Assembly (NCBI GenBank): GCA_903925015.1
Contig: CAIYDY010000065.1
Span: forward strand, 1 to 45,762
Length of the DNA: 45,762 nucleotides
Direction: 5' to 3'
From: an uncultured Acidobacteriia bacterium
Lineage (GTDB): Bacteria > Acidobacteriota > Terriglobia > Bryobacterales > Bryobacteraceae
Positions 16,315-23,992 of this stretch are shown here, piece by piece. The translations under genes and the position numbers were made by a program. Each line of letters starts with the position of its first letter. The stretch's first letter is position 1. A model generated the notes under the pieces. The model had not been told where the DNA came from. It saw nothing but the letters and a program-made list of their open reading frames with translations, and made no database searches.

Positions 16315-18873
16315 ATGGCCATGATCCATTCCTACTGGACAGCAGCCAAGATTGCCTGGAGGGAAACGCGCGCGTCGTCCGGTCGCTTCGCGTTTGTCAT
16401 CTTGGCGGTTGCAGCGGGCGTTGGGTCTCTGACCGGCGTCCGGGGCTTTTCGCAGGCCTTCCACACCGTTCTCCAGCGCGACGCCCGCGGATTCATGGCC
16501 GCTGACATGACGGTTCGGACGTTCCAACTGCCGGACGAAAAGCAGACGGCCACCATGGACCGCCTGACCGGGCTCGGAATCCGGCGAACTCAGATCACGG
16601 AGACCCTGACGATGGCGTCCCCTGGACCGGATACAGCCCCGATGCTGGTCTCAGTGAAGGCGGTCGACCCGGAGGCCTACCCGTTTTACGGTGTCATCAG
16701 CCTCAATCCGCCCGGCAGTCTGCGAGCGGTGCTGCAACCCGACGCCGTAATCGTCTCGGACGGTGTCCTGCTCCGGCTGAACAAGAAGCTCGGCGATACG
16801 GTGCGAATCGGTGGCCAACCCTTCCGTCTCGCCGCCGAGATCGTCAATGAGCCCGACAAAATGACGGGGAGCCTGAACGTGGGCCTGCGCATCATGATGT
16901 CGCGGGTCGGGCTGGAGCGAACCGGCTTGATTATTCCGGGCAGCCGTGCGTCCGAACGATTCCTATTCAAGCTTCCACTGACGCAGTCGATCGGCGCGGT
17001 TCGGGCCGAGCTCAAGAAGGTGTTTGCCGAGGGCCTGATTGCGGACTACACCGAAGCTCATCCGCTGATCGAGCAGGGCCTAAGGCAATCCACAACGTTT
17101 CTTTCGTTGGTTAGTCTGGTAGCACTGGTCATCGGGGCATTGGGTGTCGCCACGGCGATTCAAGCGCATCTCCAACAGAAAATGGATTCGATTGCCGTGA
17201 TGAAGTGCCTCGGCGCAAAGTCCTCGCAGATCCTGCGCATCTACTTGATCCAAACAGCCGGACTCGGTTTTGTCGGAGGCCTCATTGGGATTGCTGTTGG
17301 AAGCCTGATCCAGATGGCATTCCCCTATTTCCTGGAGCGCTATTTCCAGGTAGCCAACGTGCCGCGTTTCGACCCGCTCTCGGCCTTCCAAGGCATGCTG
17401 GTCGGACTGTTGACGGTGCTGCTTTTCACCGTGCCTCCGTTGCTGGGGATCCGCAAGATCCGTCCGGCGCTGATTTTCCGCCGTGAGATGGCTGCCCCGC
17501 GCCGTACCGCCCGCCAGTGGTTGCGGGACACGCTGGAGCCGGTGATCTCCGCCGTCGTCATTTTGGCGTTCGTGGGCCTGATTGCAGCTTGGTTGAGTGA
17601 CAATGCCCAGACCGGCCGCTATTTCGCTTTCGCTATCGCTGCTGCCATGGTTGCTCTGGCGATCGTCGCGTGGGTTCTTCTCCGTTTGCTGCGCATTTTG
17701 GGTCGCAACCTCCCGCGTGCCAGCGGTCCAGTCCTGCGACAGGGCATCGCCAATTTGTACCGTCCGGGCAACCACGCAGGTGCAGCCGTGATGGCATTGG
17801 GGGTGGGCGTCATGTTTACCCTGACGATCTGGATCGTGCAGCGCGGATTGCTGAAAGACATCATCCGGACGGCCCCTCCGGGCATGCCGAATGTTTACCT
17901 GCTGGATATTACGGCCGCCTCCAAGGACGCAGTGTACTCCTTGTTGGAGAAACAGGCGGGACTTGAAGGGAAGCCCGAAATGATCGGGGCCGTTTCCGCC
18001 ACCATCCAGTCGGTGGATGGCACCCCGCTGGTGCGCGAAAAATTGCAGGGGATGGCGCGGCGCTACGCGCGCACCGTCACTGTTTCCACAGCTTTGGTGG
18101 AACCGCCGTTTACCCAGATTCTCTCCGGAGCGTGGTGGGAGGCGAATGCCCACCCTGCGGAAGCCCAAGTCTCGGTTGGCGACCAAGCCGCGCGCCTGCT
18201 CAATGTACACGTCGGTTCCAAGATCGTCTGGACCACCCCCCAGCGCACCTTCCAATCCACTGTGGTGGCCGTTCACAAGAGCGAATCGGTGCGTCTTTCG
18301 GCGCGGATTGAGTTTTTCCTGACGGCGGGTGCGCTTGACGGCTTGCCCGCCATCTATTACGGCGGCGTCCGGGCCGCACCGAAGTTTGTGCCTGGCATCC
18401 AGAAGTCTCTGTACGAGACTTTTCCGACTGTCACTGTCATTAATATGGCCGAGGTTCTGGATACCATCCAAGGCATTGTCGATCAGATTTCGGTGGTCGT
18501 TCGCTTCATCTCGTTCTTCTCGATTCTGGCCGGTGCCGTGATCCTTGCGTCCAGCGTTGCCGGTACCCGGTTCCGTCGCATCCGGGAAGTCGTGATTCTG
18601 AAGACCCTGGGTGCGAGCCGCCGACGGATTGCCGAGATTTTCTCGGTGGAATTCTTCGTGATCGGTACCGTGGCCGGGCTGATGGGCGGCCTGTTGGCAG
18701 TCGGATTTGCCTGGGCCGTGCTCAACCGACTGCTGCGGGCGAATGCGCCGCCTGACTGGCTGGCATTGGGTGTCGCTGTTTTGGGCACCGCCGTCCTTGC
18801 TGTTGTGACCGGCTGGGCCGCCAGTTACCGCACCTTGGGTCAAAAACCGCTGGAGATTCTGCGGGACGAATGA
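16315..18873 (+). CDS. FtsX-like ABC transporter permease (YbbP-like, 852 aa)
   Basis: A large inner-membrane permease with a transmembrane segment near residues 24-44, a periplasmic domain, a first FtsX domain (TTFLSLVSLVALVIGALGVA, then AVMKCLGAKSSQILRIY), a central membrane region (about 410-510), a second periplasmic domain, and a second FtsX domain at the end (VVILKTLGASRRRIAEIF). The duplicated FtsX layout and size match YbbP, the partner of YbbA. It is mechanotransmission-type or lipid-extracting rather than a classical importer. The ATPase gene stops 6 bases upstream, and its own stop overlaps the next start (ATGA). Two adjacent ATGs are possible starts. Confidence 0.93.
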   Translation: MAMIHSYWTAAKIAWRETRASSGRFAFVILAVAAGVGSLTGVRGFSQAFHTVLQRDARGFMAADMTVRTFQLPDEKQTATMDRLTGLGIRRTQITETLTMASPGPDTAPMLVSVKAVDPEAYPFYGVISLNPPGSLRAVLQPDAVIVSDGVLLRLNKKLGDTVRIGGQPFRLAAEIVNEPDKMTGSLNVGLRIMMSRVGLERTGLIIPGSRASERFLFKLPLTQSIGAVRAELKKVFAEGLIADYTEAHPLIEQGLRQSTTFLSLVSLVALVIGALGVATAIQAHLQQKMDSIAVMKCLGAKSSQILRIYLIQTAGLGFVGGLIGIAVGSLIQMAFPYFLERYFQVANVPRFDPLSAFQGMLVGLLTVLLFTVPPLLGIRKIRPALIFRREMAAPRRTARQWLRDTLEPVISAVVILAFVGLIAAWLSDNAQTGRYFAFAIAAAMVALAIVAWVLLRLLRILGRNLPRASGPVLRQGIANLYRPGNHAGAAVMALGVGVMFTLTIWIVQRGLLKDIIRTAPPGMPNVYLLDITAASKDAVYSLLEKQAGLEGKPEMIGAVSATIQSVDGTPLVREKLQGMARRYARTVTVSTALVEPPFTQILSGAWWEANAHPAEAQVSVGDQAARLLNVHVGSKIVWTTPQRTFQSTVVAVHKSESVRLSARIEFFLTAGALDGLPAIYYGGVRAAPKFVPGIQKSLYETFPTVTVINMAEVLDTIQGIVDQISVVVRFISFFSILAGAVILASSVAGTRFRRIREVVILKTLGASRRRIAEIFSVEFFVIGTVAGLMGGLLAVGFAWAVLNRLLRANAPPDWLALGVAVLGTAVLAVVTGWAASYRTLGQKPLEILRDE

Positions 18874-19541
18874 TTCCCTTTGCATTCCTTCTTTCGTTGG
18901 CGGTTCCGGCGCTGCATTTCGACATCACCGATGCGCGTGGAAAGAAGCCTGCAGGCGTCTCGGTCGAAGCGGGAAGTCCCGACCACGACGGCTGGGTTCC
19001 GTTGAGCCTTTCGGTAAAAGTAAAAGGAAAATCGAATCCGGTTTACGTTCTGATCTGGCCGTTGGAAGGTTTGGCGAAGGTCGCGGACGGACCCGGCGAT
19101 ACACCGGTAATGGTGATCCAGTCGGGCGACTCGGGGGTTCTGGCCAGTCCACGGGCGGTGACCGCTTTGGCAGTTGCCAAACTTTTCGGCCATCCGGTCG
19201 AAACTGGGCTTGATGGCGTCGCATTCGATAAGGCTGTCACTGCTCTGACATTATCGGAAGACCCCTTTGCGAAGGGGGTGGCGCTTCTTTCCGGGGGCAA
19301 GGCTGTTGAGGCTGCAGAGCCGTTGGCTCGGGCTCTCCGCGAGCGGGAGCGGCAGTTGACGCGGGTTCCATCGGAAATCTATCCCGCTGCTGTGCTTCTG
19401 GGGAAGGCGTTGCTGGCTGCTGGCAAGTTTGATCCAGCTGCTGTGGCATTCTTGAAGGCGCTGCAATTGAGACCGACCGATGAGGTTGCAGTACTTCGGA
19501 GGGAAGCACTGGCCAAGGCTGGTAAGGAACTGGCTCGGTAG
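18870..19541 (+). CDS. Exported protein with TPR-like C-terminal helices
   Basis: A 223-residue protein coupled to the FtsX permease by an ATGA overlap. The first 15 or so residues are hydrophobic (MIPFAFLLSLAVPALHF) and look like a signal peptide. The middle has no recognised motif. The C-terminal third has two helix pairs resembling tetratricopeptide repeats: FAKGVALLSGGKAVEAAEPL and YPAAVLLGKALLAAGKFDPA. It is likely an extracytoplasmic accessory of the ABC/FtsX system or of the esterase. No enzyme motif is seen. The gene is convincing from coupling and codon pattern; the role is inference. Confidence 0.82.
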   Translation: MIPFAFLLSLAVPALHFDITDARGKKPAGVSVEAGSPDHDGWVPLSLSVKVKGKSNPVYVLIWPLEGLAKVADGPGDTPVMVIQSGDSGVLASPRAVTALAVAKLFGHPVETGLDGVAFDKAVTALTLSEDPFAKGVALLSGGKAVEAAEPLARALRERERQLTRVPSEIYPAAVLLGKALLAAGKFDPAAVAFLKALQLRPTDEVAVLRREALAKAGKELAR

Positions 19542-19612
19542 GGCGGACGTATGATTCCACCGAGTGGCGATTCATTGGCCAAGGACCTAGACTGGAGGCT
19601 GGGGGGAGATGG

Positions 19613-20494
19613 ATGTTTCCAAAATATAGCCGGGTCTTGAGCCTTTGCGTGCTCGTCACGCTGCCATTGGCTGCGCGCAAGCCTGGGGATTTGCCGAAAC
19701 CGGGCCTGAACATGTTTAGCCGCGACCAGGACCAGCAGCTTGGTGCGGAGGCGGCAAAAGAGGTCCGGACGAAGTACAAGACGCTGGACAACAAGTTCCT
19801 GCAGGATTACGTCAAGCGCGTGGGCGACCGGTTGGCTGCCACCAAGGAAGCAGCGGAGAGCAAGTTCCCGTTCACCTTTACCTTCATCGTGGAGCCGACG
19901 GTCAACGCTTTCGCGCTGCCGGGCGGGCCAATGTTCATCCAGACGGGCCTGTTCCCCGCCCTCGACAACGAGGCTCAACTGGCCGGGGTGATGGCGCACG
20001 AGATGTCCCACGTGATCCTGCGGCATGGCACTCATGAGGCCACCAAGGCCAAGGGTGTCGGGCTGGTAGCTTCATTTATCGGCGCGGCAGCCGGAGACGG
20101 CATGATGGGCGGCATGATGAAGGAAGCTGTTTCCCTGGGCGCAAATACATGGATGCTGCACTATTCGCGCGAAGCGGAAAGCGAGGCGGATGCCCTGGGT
20201 GCATTTATGATGGCCGAGGCGGGTTGGGACCCCATGGAGCTCGGCATCTTTTTCACCAAGCTAAATCAGGCAGGTGCCCAAAGACCGATGGAGTTCCTTT
20301 CTGACCATCCCAATCCAGACCACCGGGAAGCCGCCATCGAGGCCGAAGTGAAAGCCATGCCAACACGCACTTACGGCTATGAAACCGGTGATTTTGGGAA
20401 GGTGAGGCAGTTCATCGTGCCTTCAGCGCAGGCACCAACACAAAAAGGCGCTCCTGTTAAGCAGGTAGCGCCGACAAAAAAGAAGGGAAAGTAG
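19613..20494 (+). CDS. M48-family zinc metallopeptidase, exported
   Basis: A 293-residue gluzincin. HEMSH at 129-133 provides two zinc ligands and the catalytic Glu, and the SREAESEAD segment (185-193) supplies the third ligand. The N-terminus (residues 5-21) is a signal sequence, so the enzyme acts in the periplasm like BepA/LoiP-type proteases that clear misfolded outer-membrane proteins. No C-terminal TPR domain is present; instead it ends in a Lys/Pro/Gln-rich tail. A strong purine-rich site (GGGGGGAGATGG) precedes the ATG. A hairpin follows the stop codon. Confidence 0.93.
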   Translation: MFPKYSRVLSLCVLVTLPLAARKPGDLPKPGLNMFSRDQDQQLGAEAAKEVRTKYKTLDNKFLQDYVKRVGDRLAATKEAAESKFPFTFTFIVEPTVNAFALPGGPMFIQTGLFPALDNEAQLAGVMAHEMSHVILRHGTHEATKAKGVGLVASFIGAAAGDGMMGGMMKEAVSLGANTWMLHYSREAESEADALGAFMMAEAGWDPMELGIFFTKLNQAGAQRPMEFLSDHPNPDHREAAIEAEVKAMPTRTYGYETGDFGKVRQFIVPSAQAPTQKGAPVKQVAPTKKKGK

Positions 20495-20505
20495 AGGCGG
20501 CTGAT

Positions 20506-20543
20506 CCGTGGAACCGGGCTCAAAGCGCTGCCGGGTTCCACGG
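20506..20543. terminator. Hairpin between converging genes
   Basis: CCGTGGAACCGGGC (20506-20519) pairs with GCCGGGTTCCACGG (20530-20543) with one mismatch and a 10-base loop, a 13 of 14 bp stem. It begins 12 bases after the M48 stop and ends 10 bases before the stop of the small basic protein on the other strand, so it could serve both. There is no T-run. Confidence 0.55.
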
Positions 20544-20552
20544 ACGGGTAGC

Positions 20553-20678
20553 TTACGCGGCTTTTTGAGGAGCCACTGCGGCGAGTTCTGCTCTGAGGGC
20601 CCTGGACTTCAGCCTCTTCGCGAGCTTTTGCTTCCGCTGCCTGTTGTGCCGGGCTTTGTCGCCATTACGTACGGACAT
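20553..20678 (-). CDS. 41-residue highly basic protein (VRNGDKAR type)
   Basis: A very short gene: ATG, 41 codons, TAA. The product begins MSVRNGDKARHNRQRKQK and continues with alternating Lys/Arg and Ala/Leu, giving an amphipathic, strongly basic helix with about 14 Lys/Arg. From memory, small proteins with this N-R-x-G-D-K-A-R start recur in Acidobacteria, usually unannotated or hypothetical. A purine-rich AGGGGA lies directly before the ATG and GATAAT just upstream, which could be a promoter giving a very short leader. The composition suggests RNA, ribosome or DNA binding. The overlapping plus-strand reading frame is Cys/Pro-rich and unlikely. Function unknown. Confidence 0.7.
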   Translation of the reverse strand: MSVRNGDKARHNRQRKQKLAKRLKSRALRAELAAVAPQKAA

Positions 20679-20734
20679 TCCCCTATTATCGCTTGTCCGG
20701 GCCTGCCGTGCACGTTTTTTTTCGCGCGAAGTTG

Positions 20735-21127
20735 TTAAAAAGCGCCCGGTGTAGGAACGACGAGGGGCGATGGGGGAAGATAGGTGCCTCTTAGGGTCAC
20801 GCCATCACTGTTGGTTGCGGACCGGATCGCGATCCATTCGGCCGCGACAAAGGCTCCGAGAATTCCCACCACCGGGGCCAATTCCGGCTGTGCAACGGCG
20901 ATTCCCCCCATGATCTGGAGTGCGGTGCCCGCGAGATCGTTCGCACCAGCCAGTTTTGCGATCCCTTGGGAGTTCAGGTGGACTTTGTAAACTGCGGGAA
21001 ACACGCGGACCGAGCCACTGCCGTCAGGAAGATCGAAGGCTGAAAGCTGTGTGGCATTTTCCAGACCATGAACCGCTTGGCCCGCCACGCCACTGATTCC
21101 ACTTGCGATACTGCTGAAGAAACTCAT
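20735..21127 (-). CDS. Small Gly/Ala-rich protein of unknown function
   Basis: A 130-residue protein with a good ribosome site (AGAGGAC six bases before ATG). The N-terminal part is Ser/Gly rich (MSFFSSIASGISGVAGQAV), the middle has a beta-like stretch (SVRVFPAVYKVHLNSQGI), and residues 62-100 are a Gly/Ala/Ile-rich hydrophobic segment (LAGTALQIMGGIAVAQPEL, then PVVGILGAFVAAEWIAI). The C-terminus is Pro rich. There is no cleavable signal. The Gly-zipper look recalls small membrane-active or bacteriocin-like proteins, but I cannot support that function. It is upstream of the 41-residue basic gene on the same strand, 56 bases apart. Confidence 0.75.
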   Translation of the reverse strand: MSFFSSIASGISGVAGQAVHGLENATQLSAFDLPDGSGSVRVFPAVYKVHLNSQGIAKLAGANDLAGTALQIMGGIAVAQPELAPVVGILGAFVAAEWIAIRSATNSDGVTLRGTYLPPSPLVVPTPGAF

Positions 21128-21285
21128 TGTGATGTCCTCTTTTTCTTGGGTTGGGCCCGTATGCCTTTCCCCACCTCAAAGGCGCTGGCGAGGAGAAAGC
21201 GCGCCAGCATTTTTCGCAATATTTTTCGGGCGGGTCCGGATTGAGCATCGACGGTTGTCTTCTCGGGGATGCTAAACTGCGGCGA

Positions 21286-22716
21286 GTGAAATCCACCCGG
21301 TTACAGACGGCGCTCCTGGTTGCGCTGCTGGCGATTGTCGGCGCGGCAATCGTCGCCTACTCGCAATTGAGAGCCTTCGCGTGGGACGAAGGTTTCCACA
21401 TCGTCACCGCGCAGCTGATCCTGCGTGGAAAGCGTCCGTACTTGGATTTCTGCTTCTCCCAGACTCCGTTGAATGCCTACTGGAATGCCTTCTGGATGTC
21501 GATCTTCGGCGATTCGTGGCGGACGGTGCACGCGGCTGCGGCGGTGTCGGCATCCTTGGCGACGGCGGTTACCGGATGGTTCGTGCTACACCGGTTTCCC
21601 GAGCCCGAACGGCGGATACCGGGGGCTTTCCTTGTGGCCGTGCTGATGGGTCTGAACGTGGTGGTTTTCCGGTACGGCGGGATCTCGCAGGCCTATGGGC
21701 TGTGCCTAGTGCTGCTGGTTTCGGCCTACTGGTGCGCTGTGGTGGCCGTGGAAAGCGGTAAGGTGTCTGCCGCGATGCTGGCCGGTCTATTTTGCGCCGC
21801 GGCTGCGGGTTCCAGCCTGCTGACCGCTCCGGCCGTGCCGATCCTGTTTGCGTGGATCTTGGTGAACAGTGCTGGCGGCGCAAGGGTGCGGAAGCTTGGC
21901 GCATTTGTCGGTGGAGCCTTGGTTGCGCTCAGCCCCGTCCTTTGGCTGTTCGCGCAAAACCCGAAGCAGGTGTGGTTCGGCATTGTTGACTACAACCTGA
22001 AGTACCGGTTGGTGGACTGGCCTCCGCCCGACGCGAACCGGCAGAATCTGGAAGTAGCCATGGCGTGGATCGGATCGGGTCCGGCCCTTGTGCTGATCCT
22101 GCTGGGGATTGCCGGGTTCCGGGCCACCCGCCGAGCCGAATTGCGGCTTTGCGGCTGGCTGGCGGCGGGCTTGGGCCTGTACATCGGTGCCGCAGTCCGG
22201 CCCACATTCCCGCAGTATCTGGTTTTCACAGTACCGTTCCTCGCTATTCTGTCGGTGGCCGGTATTGCGGACCAGTGGCCGAACCGGAAGTGGGCACCGG
22301 TGCTGGTTGCGTCTTTCCTAGTGGTATTCGGGCTGGGCAAGAGCCTGTACGACGAGCGCGACGACTCAACCTGGCAGGATTTCGAGCGCGTGGCTCTGAA
22401 GGTTGACGAGGTAACTCCAAAGGGTGCCATGCTGATGGCCGACGAGGTTGTGTACTTCCTGACCAAACGCACGCCTCCGGAAGGCAACGAGGAGCGCAAT
22501 TCCCATAAGCTGGAATTCGGCAAGGCGGATGCCAAGCTGTACCACATCCGCCCGCAATCGCAACTGGACCGGGAGGCCCTGTCAGGCGTATTCGCCACCC
22601 TGGAGACCTGCGAGGACGAGGACTACATCGCCGAAAAAGGCTTCGCCAAGGTCTTCGCCAAGAAGGCCGAGGTGGAAGGCTGCACGGTTTTCTGGGACTA
22701 CAAGGGTCGCAAGTAG
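21286..22716 (+). CDS. GT-C-like multi-pass membrane glycosyltransferase
   Basis: A 476-residue membrane protein with roughly nine to eleven hydrophobic segments. After the first segment comes AFAWDEGFHIVTAQLILRG, which matches the acidic motif after the first membrane helix of GT-C enzymes such as PMT/ArnT, and FCFSQTPLNAYW follows. The C-terminal 110 residues form a soluble domain (VDEVTPKGAMLMADEVVYFL). It probably transfers a sugar from a polyprenyl-phosphate donor on the outer face of the membrane; donor and acceptor are unknown. I chose the GTG giving VKSTRLQTALL, since the frame upstream is soluble and unlike the family. Its stop is one base from the stop of the converging DUF711 gene. 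Confidence 0.82.
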   Translation: MKSTRLQTALLVALLAIVGAAIVAYSQLRAFAWDEGFHIVTAQLILRGKRPYLDFCFSQTPLNAYWNAFWMSIFGDSWRTVHAAAAVSASLATAVTGWFVLHRFPEPERRIPGAFLVAVLMGLNVVVFRYGGISQAYGLCLVLLVSAYWCAVVAVESGKVSAAMLAGLFCAAAAGSSLLTAPAVPILFAWILVNSAGGARVRKLGAFVGGALVALSPVLWLFAQNPKQVWFGIVDYNLKYRLVDWPPPDANRQNLEVAMAWIGSGPALVLILLGIAGFRATRRAELRLCGWLAAGLGLYIGAAVRPTFPQYLVFTVPFLAILSVAGIADQWPNRKWAPVLVASFLVVFGLGKSLYDERDDSTWQDFERVALKVDEVTPKGAMLMADEVVYFLTKRTPPEGNEERNSHKLEFGKADAKLYHIRPQSQLDREALSGVFATLETCEDEDYIAEKGFAKVFAKKAEVEGCTVFWDYKGRK

Positions 22717-22717
22717 G

Positions 22718-23992
22718 CTACTTGCGCGGCGTCCCAGGCAGCGGTTGGATGGTCGCGTTGGCGAGTTGGCCGCCAAACTCGGTCATTTCGCCGGCCTTGC
22801 GACCGGGCGCGGGCAGCAGGCGGGTGGCGAGCGGCTTGTTCCATCGGTACGCAAGGGTCGCGACGTCACCCACAATCCGGGCGATTGCCGCCTCGCTGGT
22901 GTCGCCGGCCAACGGCACGGTATCGACGCCACCGGCGCAGACGGCCGAGTAGGCGAGGATCGAGTCCAGCCCGTACGTACCCTCGGTCCAGCGGCGGGTG
23001 AGGGTGGTTTCCTCCAGAACCGGAATCATCAGGCCGGAGTAACCTGTCTGCTTCACAGGGACGGCCTTCACTGCGCGCGTGATGATCGCCGAGGCCGTCT
23101 CGGTGCCTGGAGAGCCGAACGGGCCGCCCACGAAGGATTCCACGGCTGTGCCGATGGAGATGGCTCCGCCTGGCGCAGGGGTGGGATCGATACCCGCGTA
23201 GGTCCAACCGGAACCGGTGGACGCCTTCATTGCCGCCGCTTCGACGGCCTTGGCGTGGACCGACAGCGCCTCGGTGAGCGCCTTTTCGGCGGTGCGGGGA
23301 TCTTGGTTCGAGGCGAAGACGTCCATGACGACATTCGCGGATTCCAGGCCGATCGCGAACTGGCGGGGTCCGGCCGGATGCCAGGCGCCGGGGTAGAAGG
23401 GGCCGTAGGGTTTCAACATCGATATGGCACCGAAGTTGAAATTGCCCTGGCCGTGCGGGCTTCGTTCGCCCACGGACTTGATGACACGGGCGGCTTGGCG
23501 GACGGCGTTCCAGTAGATGCCGTCCTCGCCGGCCGTGACCAGGTTCGAGACGAGGCGGTTGCCGGGGGTGGAAAGAACGTCGATGAGCAGGTCGACGGGC
23601 TCGGTCGGGTCGGTATCCTTGCGCATGGCGGGACCGATGTTCGGGTTGAAACCCAGTTTGGTGGACAGGTCGTTGATGTCACGCAGGAGCTTGAGGGCGT
23701 CGGCACGGGACAGACCCTTGGTGTATTCGGGAAACGGCTGGGTGGAGATGCGGATGCCGGCGACGTCGTACCCGGCGGCTTTGACGGCCTCGCGAACCTT
23801 GGAGAGGAACTGGACGGTTTCCGCGAGCTGGGCGGGATAGTTTTTGGCGTCAATGGTGACGAAACCGGTGATGGCCCGGACTTTGGGCTTGGCAGCGGGA
23901 GCGGCAGAGAGGACGGTGCCTGTAGGTAGAAGCGCCGCAAGAAAGAGGGCTGAGAGGGAGCGGGCCGAAAGGAAACGGAGGATCGGTGGCAT
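22718..23992 (-). CDS. DUF711 (UPF0210) family protein with signal peptide
   Basis: A 424-residue protein with an N-terminal hydrophobic signal (SLSALFLAALLPTGTVLSAA) followed by the DUF711 body: RAITGFVTIDAKNYPAQ, GIRISTQPFPEY, SFVGGPFGSPGTETASAI and CAGGVDTVPLAGDTSE. The family has solved archaeal structures but no firm biochemical role, from memory. Cytoplasmic members usually have no signal, so an exported version is a small oddity. The frame extends upstream with no family similarity; the chosen ATG gives MPPILRFLSARS. It is monocistronic and converges on the GT-C gene with a one-base gap. Confidence 0.86.
   Translation of the reverse strand: MPPILRFLSARSLSALFLAALLPTGTVLSAAPAAKPKVRAITGFVTIDAKNYPAQLAETVQFLSKVREAVKAAGYDVAGIRISTQPFPEYTKGLSRADALKLLRDINDLSTKLGFNPNIGPAMRKDTDPTEPVDLLIDVLSTPGNRLVSNLVTAGEDGIYWNAVRQAARVIKSVGERSPHGQGNFNFGAISMLKPYGPFYPGAWHPAGPRQFAIGLESANVVMDVFASNQDPRTAEKALTEALSVHAKAVEAAAMKASTGSGWTYAGIDPTPAPGGAISIGTAVESFVGGPFGSPGTETASAIITRAVKAVPVKQTGYSGLMIPVLEETTLTRRWTEGTYGLDSILAYSAVCAGGVDTVPLAGDTSEAAIARIVGDVATLAYRWNKPLATRLLPAPGRKAGEMTEFGGQLANATIQPLPGTPRK

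Follow-up and report, generated by a model that had tools for sequence, protein, structure and literature searches.

A small basic protein gene family of Acidobacteriota with a predicted leaderless start in one lineage and RNA-gene neighborhoods in others

Introduction

Several ribosomal proteins, bTHX, bS22, and bL37 among them, are very small and rich in Arg and Lys, and in cyanobacteria the gene for the small, basic ribosomal protein bS21 (rpsU) is found paired with an rbp gene. Synechocystis Rbp1 is an example of the RNA recognition motif (RRM) proteins of cold adaptation (PMC9333190). Leaderless genes, which carry a TANNNT box near position -12, were reported in three of three Acidobacteria genomes, at an average of 13.3% (PMC3160421).

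Here, we describe a 41-codon gene in a 45,762-nucleotide stretch of DNA from an uncultured Acidobacteriia bacterium (the whole stretch analyzed, hereafter the window) that resembles each of these systems in part. Its product is like bTHX, bS22, and bL37 in size and Arg/Lys content, but none of these families turns up when 59 members are compared with Pfam and NCBIfam at E ≤ 1. It is small and basic like bS21, and one genome from its class has an S21 gene just behind an RRM gene, a position that in other genomes the small gene occupies near RRM genes; unlike bS21, which is universal in the good-quality genomes surveyed (46/46), the small protein occurs in 18/46, and the two share no profile similarity beyond controls. 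The likeness to Synechocystis Rbp1 belongs to an RRM gene near the small gene in other genomes (judged from its sequence, the product at locus L096 combines one RRM-like part with a Gly-rich tail), not to the small protein itself. Compared with the surveyed leaderless genes, box position and, at 23 of 42 loci of the window's taxonomic family, box consensus are alike, whereas the window's own box, GATAAT, is not a strict TANNNT.

Results

The open reading frame list places an ATG-to-TAA frame of 41 codons at exactly 20553–20678 on the minus strand (ATG at 20678, TAA at 20553–20555). Its product, MSVRNGDKARHNRQRKQKLAKRLKSRALRAELAAVAPQKAA, has 13 Lys/Arg against 2 Asp/Glu residues and a computed pI of 12.0, and AlphaFold2, given a 59-row alignment, predicts one helix spanning residues 3–39 (mean pLDDT 86.7, pTM 0.52); a single predicted helix of this kind says little about the binding partner. 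Its amphipathicity is moderate, with a hydrophobic moment that reaches 0.40 at most over the scored stretches, and its sequence has no hydrophobic signal-like start. The original prediction of a short frame with a strikingly basic, helical product thus describes this frame well, with the addition that the strand, which had been left unstated, is the minus strand. Chance frames are common in this DNA: 82 frames of at least 25 aa overlap positions 18000–23500 in the list, and the plus strand over 20553–20678 is likewise open, within a 76-aa frame at 20508–20738.

Codon-level comparison singles out the minus-strand frame. Of 22 close pairs of loci picked by eye, the 15 disjoint ones were pooled, giving pS = 0.34, pN = 0.077, and pN/pS = 0.23, with a ratio of 0.13 over codons 2–32 and 173 of 289 changes at third positions; one pair, L146/L153, reaches a ratio of 0.61. 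Over the same 15 pairs the five other frames give 1.34, 1.74, 1.38, 0.40, and 2.37. The value of 1.38 belongs to the in-phase antisense frame on the plus strand, in which no selection is seen, and that of 0.40 to another antisense frame, presumably because its third positions coincide with those of the small frame. Substitutions thus respect the codons of the minus-strand frame, which is also conserved in relatives. Either a missing frame in relatives or codon-blind substitutions would have refuted the original proposal, and neither is seen: the small frame is a genuine protein-coding gene.

Relatives were found by several searches. Among 61 genomes, the protein was detected in 19 by a single-sequence search and in 20 by a profile search, the window's own genome included in both counts; one of the 20 is doubtful, a hit in G060 with E = 0.0014 that falls within a 585-aa frame. 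In the 46 good genomes it is present in 18 (one doubtful) and without a match in 28, and within the genus the profile search found no match in 7 of 19 genomes. Three broader searches scored partial sets of first-look candidates (at most 17 per genome for the phylum, 58 for the family, and 33 for the class), and their counts are therefore lower bounds: at least 39 of 121 genomes of the family, at least 54 of 200 of the class (E ≤ 0.001), and, for the phylum, 25 of 396, or at least 20 of 396 after removal of five matches judged to be chance (L040, L042, L043, L044, and L045), the remaining 20 including the window's own genome and L038. A scan of named genomes with a pattern built from acidobacterial members, the one search that covered other phyla, confirmed 105 of 184 stretches, and the 80 of the 105 that were listed are all Acidobacteriota by title; none of 73 viral stretches matching the pattern was confirmed. 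The proposal that similar short N-R-x-G-D-K-A-R proteins recur in Acidobacteria is borne out by these relatives across Acidobacteriota genomes. Two genomes hold more than one match: G019 has two (L007 and L020) and G563 has three.

In the 59-row alignment, M1, S2, and G6 are invariant, and conservation runs from a shared start codon through an MSxxNGDKAR-like beginning; the overall consensus is roughly MSxxNGDKARxxRxRKxKxxRRxxxRxLRxxL. The 148 profile hits among 153 loci reduce to 120 distinct loci when those with identical gene plus 40 nt of upstream sequence are counted as duplicates, and to 119 without the truncated L038. All 119 start with ATG except L025 (TTG) and L073 (GTG), and their products are 34–93 aa long (median 48) with net charges of +4 to +15 (median +11). 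Searching with the 59 members returned only scattered weak matches and no convincing one in Pfam or NCBIfam, the best (0.026 in Pfam; 0.0058 in NCBIfam, to an aminotransferase) being judged chance; no convincing relative was found among solved structures (two hits, both weak, at E = 0.71 and 4.8), and literature searches for the letters NGDKAR and NGDKSR found no paper. Judged by these literature searches and by Pfam and NCBIfam, the family is apparently undescribed, and a major soil phylum gains with it a conserved protein family not covered by any curated model.

Upstream of the start codon, the window reads GCGATAAT-AGGGGA-ATG. A purine-rich ribosome-binding site had been proposed here, but AGGGGA (20679–20684, minus strand) lies directly against the ATG, and in the sister locus L003, whose product is identical at 39 of 41 residues, it is replaced by GAAGTA; we therefore reject it as a Shine-Dalgarno (SD) site. 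L003 retains both GCGATAAT and a further block, AAAAAAAACGTGCACGGC (20705–20722, minus strand; also in L002, with one extra A), and further upstream the window and L003 show little resemblance. Because the -10-like box is kept while AGGGGA is changed, it is the box, not the purine run, that is the conserved element, and the run can be read as the spacer between box and start. The box itself, GATAAT (20685–20690, minus strand), lies 6 nt before the ATG, at 12 nt from the start, is kept in the window, L002, and L003, and is predicted to drive a transcript with little or no leader. The case illustrates a pitfall: a purine run that abuts an ATG can pass for a ribosome site although, on comparison with relatives, a -10 box is the better reading. 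Within the AAAAAAAACGTGCACGGC block, GTGCAC is separated from GATAAT by 17 nt, as is usual for a -35 element, but fits TTGACA poorly; it may be a -35 element or an operator. The arrangement GTGCAC-N16..18-GATAAT is found once in each of three genomes, only at the small gene (backwards control, 0). In G000 it is absent from the upstream stretches inspected, which cover two of the three cold-shock genes, two of the three RRM genes, and the gene for S21. A shared promoter regulon was rejected because the arrangement is single in all three genomes.

Across the window's family, TGNTANNNT with its TA 10–18 nt before the start is found at 23 of 42 loci (0.15 expected), 16 of them with the TA at exactly 15 nt, and a GATAAT-type box at 11–12 nt is found at 9 of 23 tested loci (0.009 expected), the window included and none of them among the 23 TGNTANNNT loci. 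It should be noted that both patterns were written after the upstream sequences had been viewed, so that the expected counts flatter the result and are a guide rather than a fair test. Both patterns together place a -10-like box 11–17 nt before the start at 32 of 42 loci, most of which therefore look leaderless. SD-like words occur at 9 of the 42, above the background of 5.6% per shifted window; two loci (L012 and L069) have both an SD-like word and a -10-like box, and of the ten with neither box, seven have an SD-like word. Among the 77 other loci (all those not known to belong to the window's family, some of them titled Bryobacterales), 57 have an SD-like word, against a background of 3.9%, and in the 54 that could be scored for distance the word lies 6 nt from the start in 29 and 5–8 nt in 46. 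Seven of the other loci (L085, L087, L089, L097, L106, L137, and L138) have an extended -10 element; these are titled Bryobacterales, Bryobacteraceae, Candidatus Solibacter, or unplaced Acidobacteria. The family offers a natural case of orthologs of one small gene that seem to be translated by two routes, SD-led at some loci and leaderless at others.

The small gene had been placed between two converging, hairpin-bounded genes. Only one neighbor converges on it, an M48 peptidase gene at 19613–20494 on the plus strand (PF01435, E = 3.2e-28), which also lies downstream in L002 and L003 and is matched in 10 of 19 genus genomes; the upstream neighbor, a 130-aa frame at 20735–21127, shares the minus strand with the small gene, has no match in Pfam (E ≤ 0.01), and was found in 2 of 19 genus genomes, its own included. 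Between the small gene and the M48 gene, at about 20504–20545, lies a hairpin of -27.4 kcal/mol (z = -4.2); L003 has one of -32.7 kcal/mol (z = -4.3) with a different arm sequence. The window hairpin has no immediate T run and may serve as a shared terminator of the two convergent genes. A search of 1.5 kb to either side of the window copy found no RNA or cold-shock gene, and loci of the window's family have no partner gene that is widely shared.

The picture differs at other members. The flanks covered, which extend at most 3 kb per side and often 1.5 kb or less, contain an RRM gene at 41 of the 119 loci (weak matches, only 44–46% identical, at L147 and L152), a cspA-type gene at 26, and a DEAD-box helicase gene at 17 (weak matches at L065 and L087). 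Nearly all RRM and cspA-type neighbors are outside the window's family; within it, besides the weak DEAD-box match at L065, RNA or cold-shock neighbors are found at only 2 of 42 loci: L064, where a cspA-type gene ends about 20–30 nt upstream of the small gene, and L008, where RRM and cspA-type genes lie within about 1.2 kb. A common order is cspA (opposite strand, upstream), the small gene, the RRM gene, and a DEAD-box gene (opposite strand, downstream), and at the six loci for which the gap frames were inspected, a frame resembling a response-regulator receiver lies between the small gene and the RRM gene; at L096, the sole locus run against Pfam, this frame matches PF00072 with E = 0.0021, below the cut-off. 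A cluster of cspA-type, small-protein, receiver-like, RRM, and DEAD-box genes recurs outside the window's family at L096, L112, L126, L132, L139, L141, and others. Genomes hold 0–8 RRM genes (61 genomes) and 0–5 cold-shock genes (23 genomes), so chance neighbors should be rare. The cluster of cspA, RRM, and DEAD-box genes looks like one inherited arrangement, so that the loci share ancestry and are not independent. For the earlier suggestion that the protein could bind ribosomes or nucleic acid, the RNA-gene neighborhoods of other members give indirect support, and the lack of such a neighbor at the window copy speaks against; the neighborhoods offer a testable functional lead.

Discussion

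We favor, with a probability of about 0.6, the reading that the 41-codon frame belongs to a genuine family of small genes, leaderless in the window's lineage, that encodes an accessory RNA- or ribosome-binding protein of cold or stress adaptation. In the window's lineage, the gene would be transcribed on its own from the -10 box that ends 6 nt short of the ATG, giving a leaderless mRNA predicted to end near the hairpin shared with the convergent M48 peptidase gene. The product, modeled as a single long basic helix that opens with the conserved MSxxNGDKAR, would then most probably act as an accessory factor on RNA or ribosomes in the cold or under stress, alongside RRM and cold-shock proteins. 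A more specific version, in which the family is an Acidobacteriota ribosome/mRNA stress factor that sat ancestrally in the cold-shock RNA cluster and moved to a single-gene leaderless unit in the window's lineage, where the small protein could still be made when SD-led initiation is impaired, is speculative, and we consider it improbable as a whole.

Other functions can be weighed against the same data. An Acidobacteriota-specific ribosomal protein or subunit accessory, comparable in kind to bTHX, bS22, or bS21, would suit the length, charge, and one-helix prediction, the RRM genes that flank 41 of the 119 loci, and the gene order in genome G058, which gives no match to the small protein and has an S21 gene just downstream of an RRM gene. 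We nevertheless consider such a role unlikely. Since bS21 is present in 46 of 46 good genomes and the small protein, with one doubtful case, in 18, its distribution is too patchy for a core ribosomal protein, and no ribosomal model is among the Pfam or NCBIfam matches of the 59 members at E ≤ 1. Kinship with bS21 was also sought directly, with 25 acidobacterial bS21 sequences picked by motif (from L164–L166, L183, L184, and 20 further stretches), and is not supported: the profile comparison reaches 11.7 over 5 columns, less than the 15.5 of the reversed control and barely more than the 8.5–11.4 of five column shuffles. As to G058, the S21 gene in question (L184, G058:C282:7000-9000) comes immediately after an RRM gene whose product is Gly-rich, and that genome, in which the small protein finds no match, has a second S21 gene elsewhere. 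A DNA-binding, nucleoid-type, or regulatory peptide is about as doubtful a candidate as a ribosomal protein: an Arg/Lys-rich helix suits DNA as well as RNA, and the six displayed loci have the response-regulator-like frame after the small gene, but the members show no convincing DNA-binding match (weak single hits, such as Tnp_DNA_bind at 0.27 in Pfam), and the recurrent neighbors found are RNA genes.

Far less probable is a secreted cationic antimicrobial or toxin-like peptide, which the small, basic, moderately amphipathic product would allow; against it stand the lack of a hydrophobic signal-like start, the invariance of M1, S2, and G6 in 59 rows, the absence of a partner gene common across the window's family, and the 0 of 73 viral stretches confirmed. 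The least credible reading of all is a chance open frame or antisense artifact. The abundance of frames of 25 aa or more around the locus, the open plus strand, and the antisense ratio of 0.40 would be in keeping with it, but the small frame is conserved across the family from the same start codon and is under purifying selection, and we give this reading almost no weight. The accessory RNA- or ribosome-binding protein of cold or stress adaptation remains our preferred reading.

A further observation concerns synonymous change along the gene. In ten leaderless-type pairs picked by eye, window versus L003 among them, pS is 0.22 and 0.25 in codons 2–20 against 0.46 and 0.54 later, and in nine of the ten it is lower in codons 2–26 than in the remainder. 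Eight SD-type pairs, likewise picked by eye, give 0.26, 0.49, 0.27, and 0.38 in four bins, with no clear trend. The low early synonymous change could reflect a constraint at the 5' end of the mRNA, or chance in short sequences.
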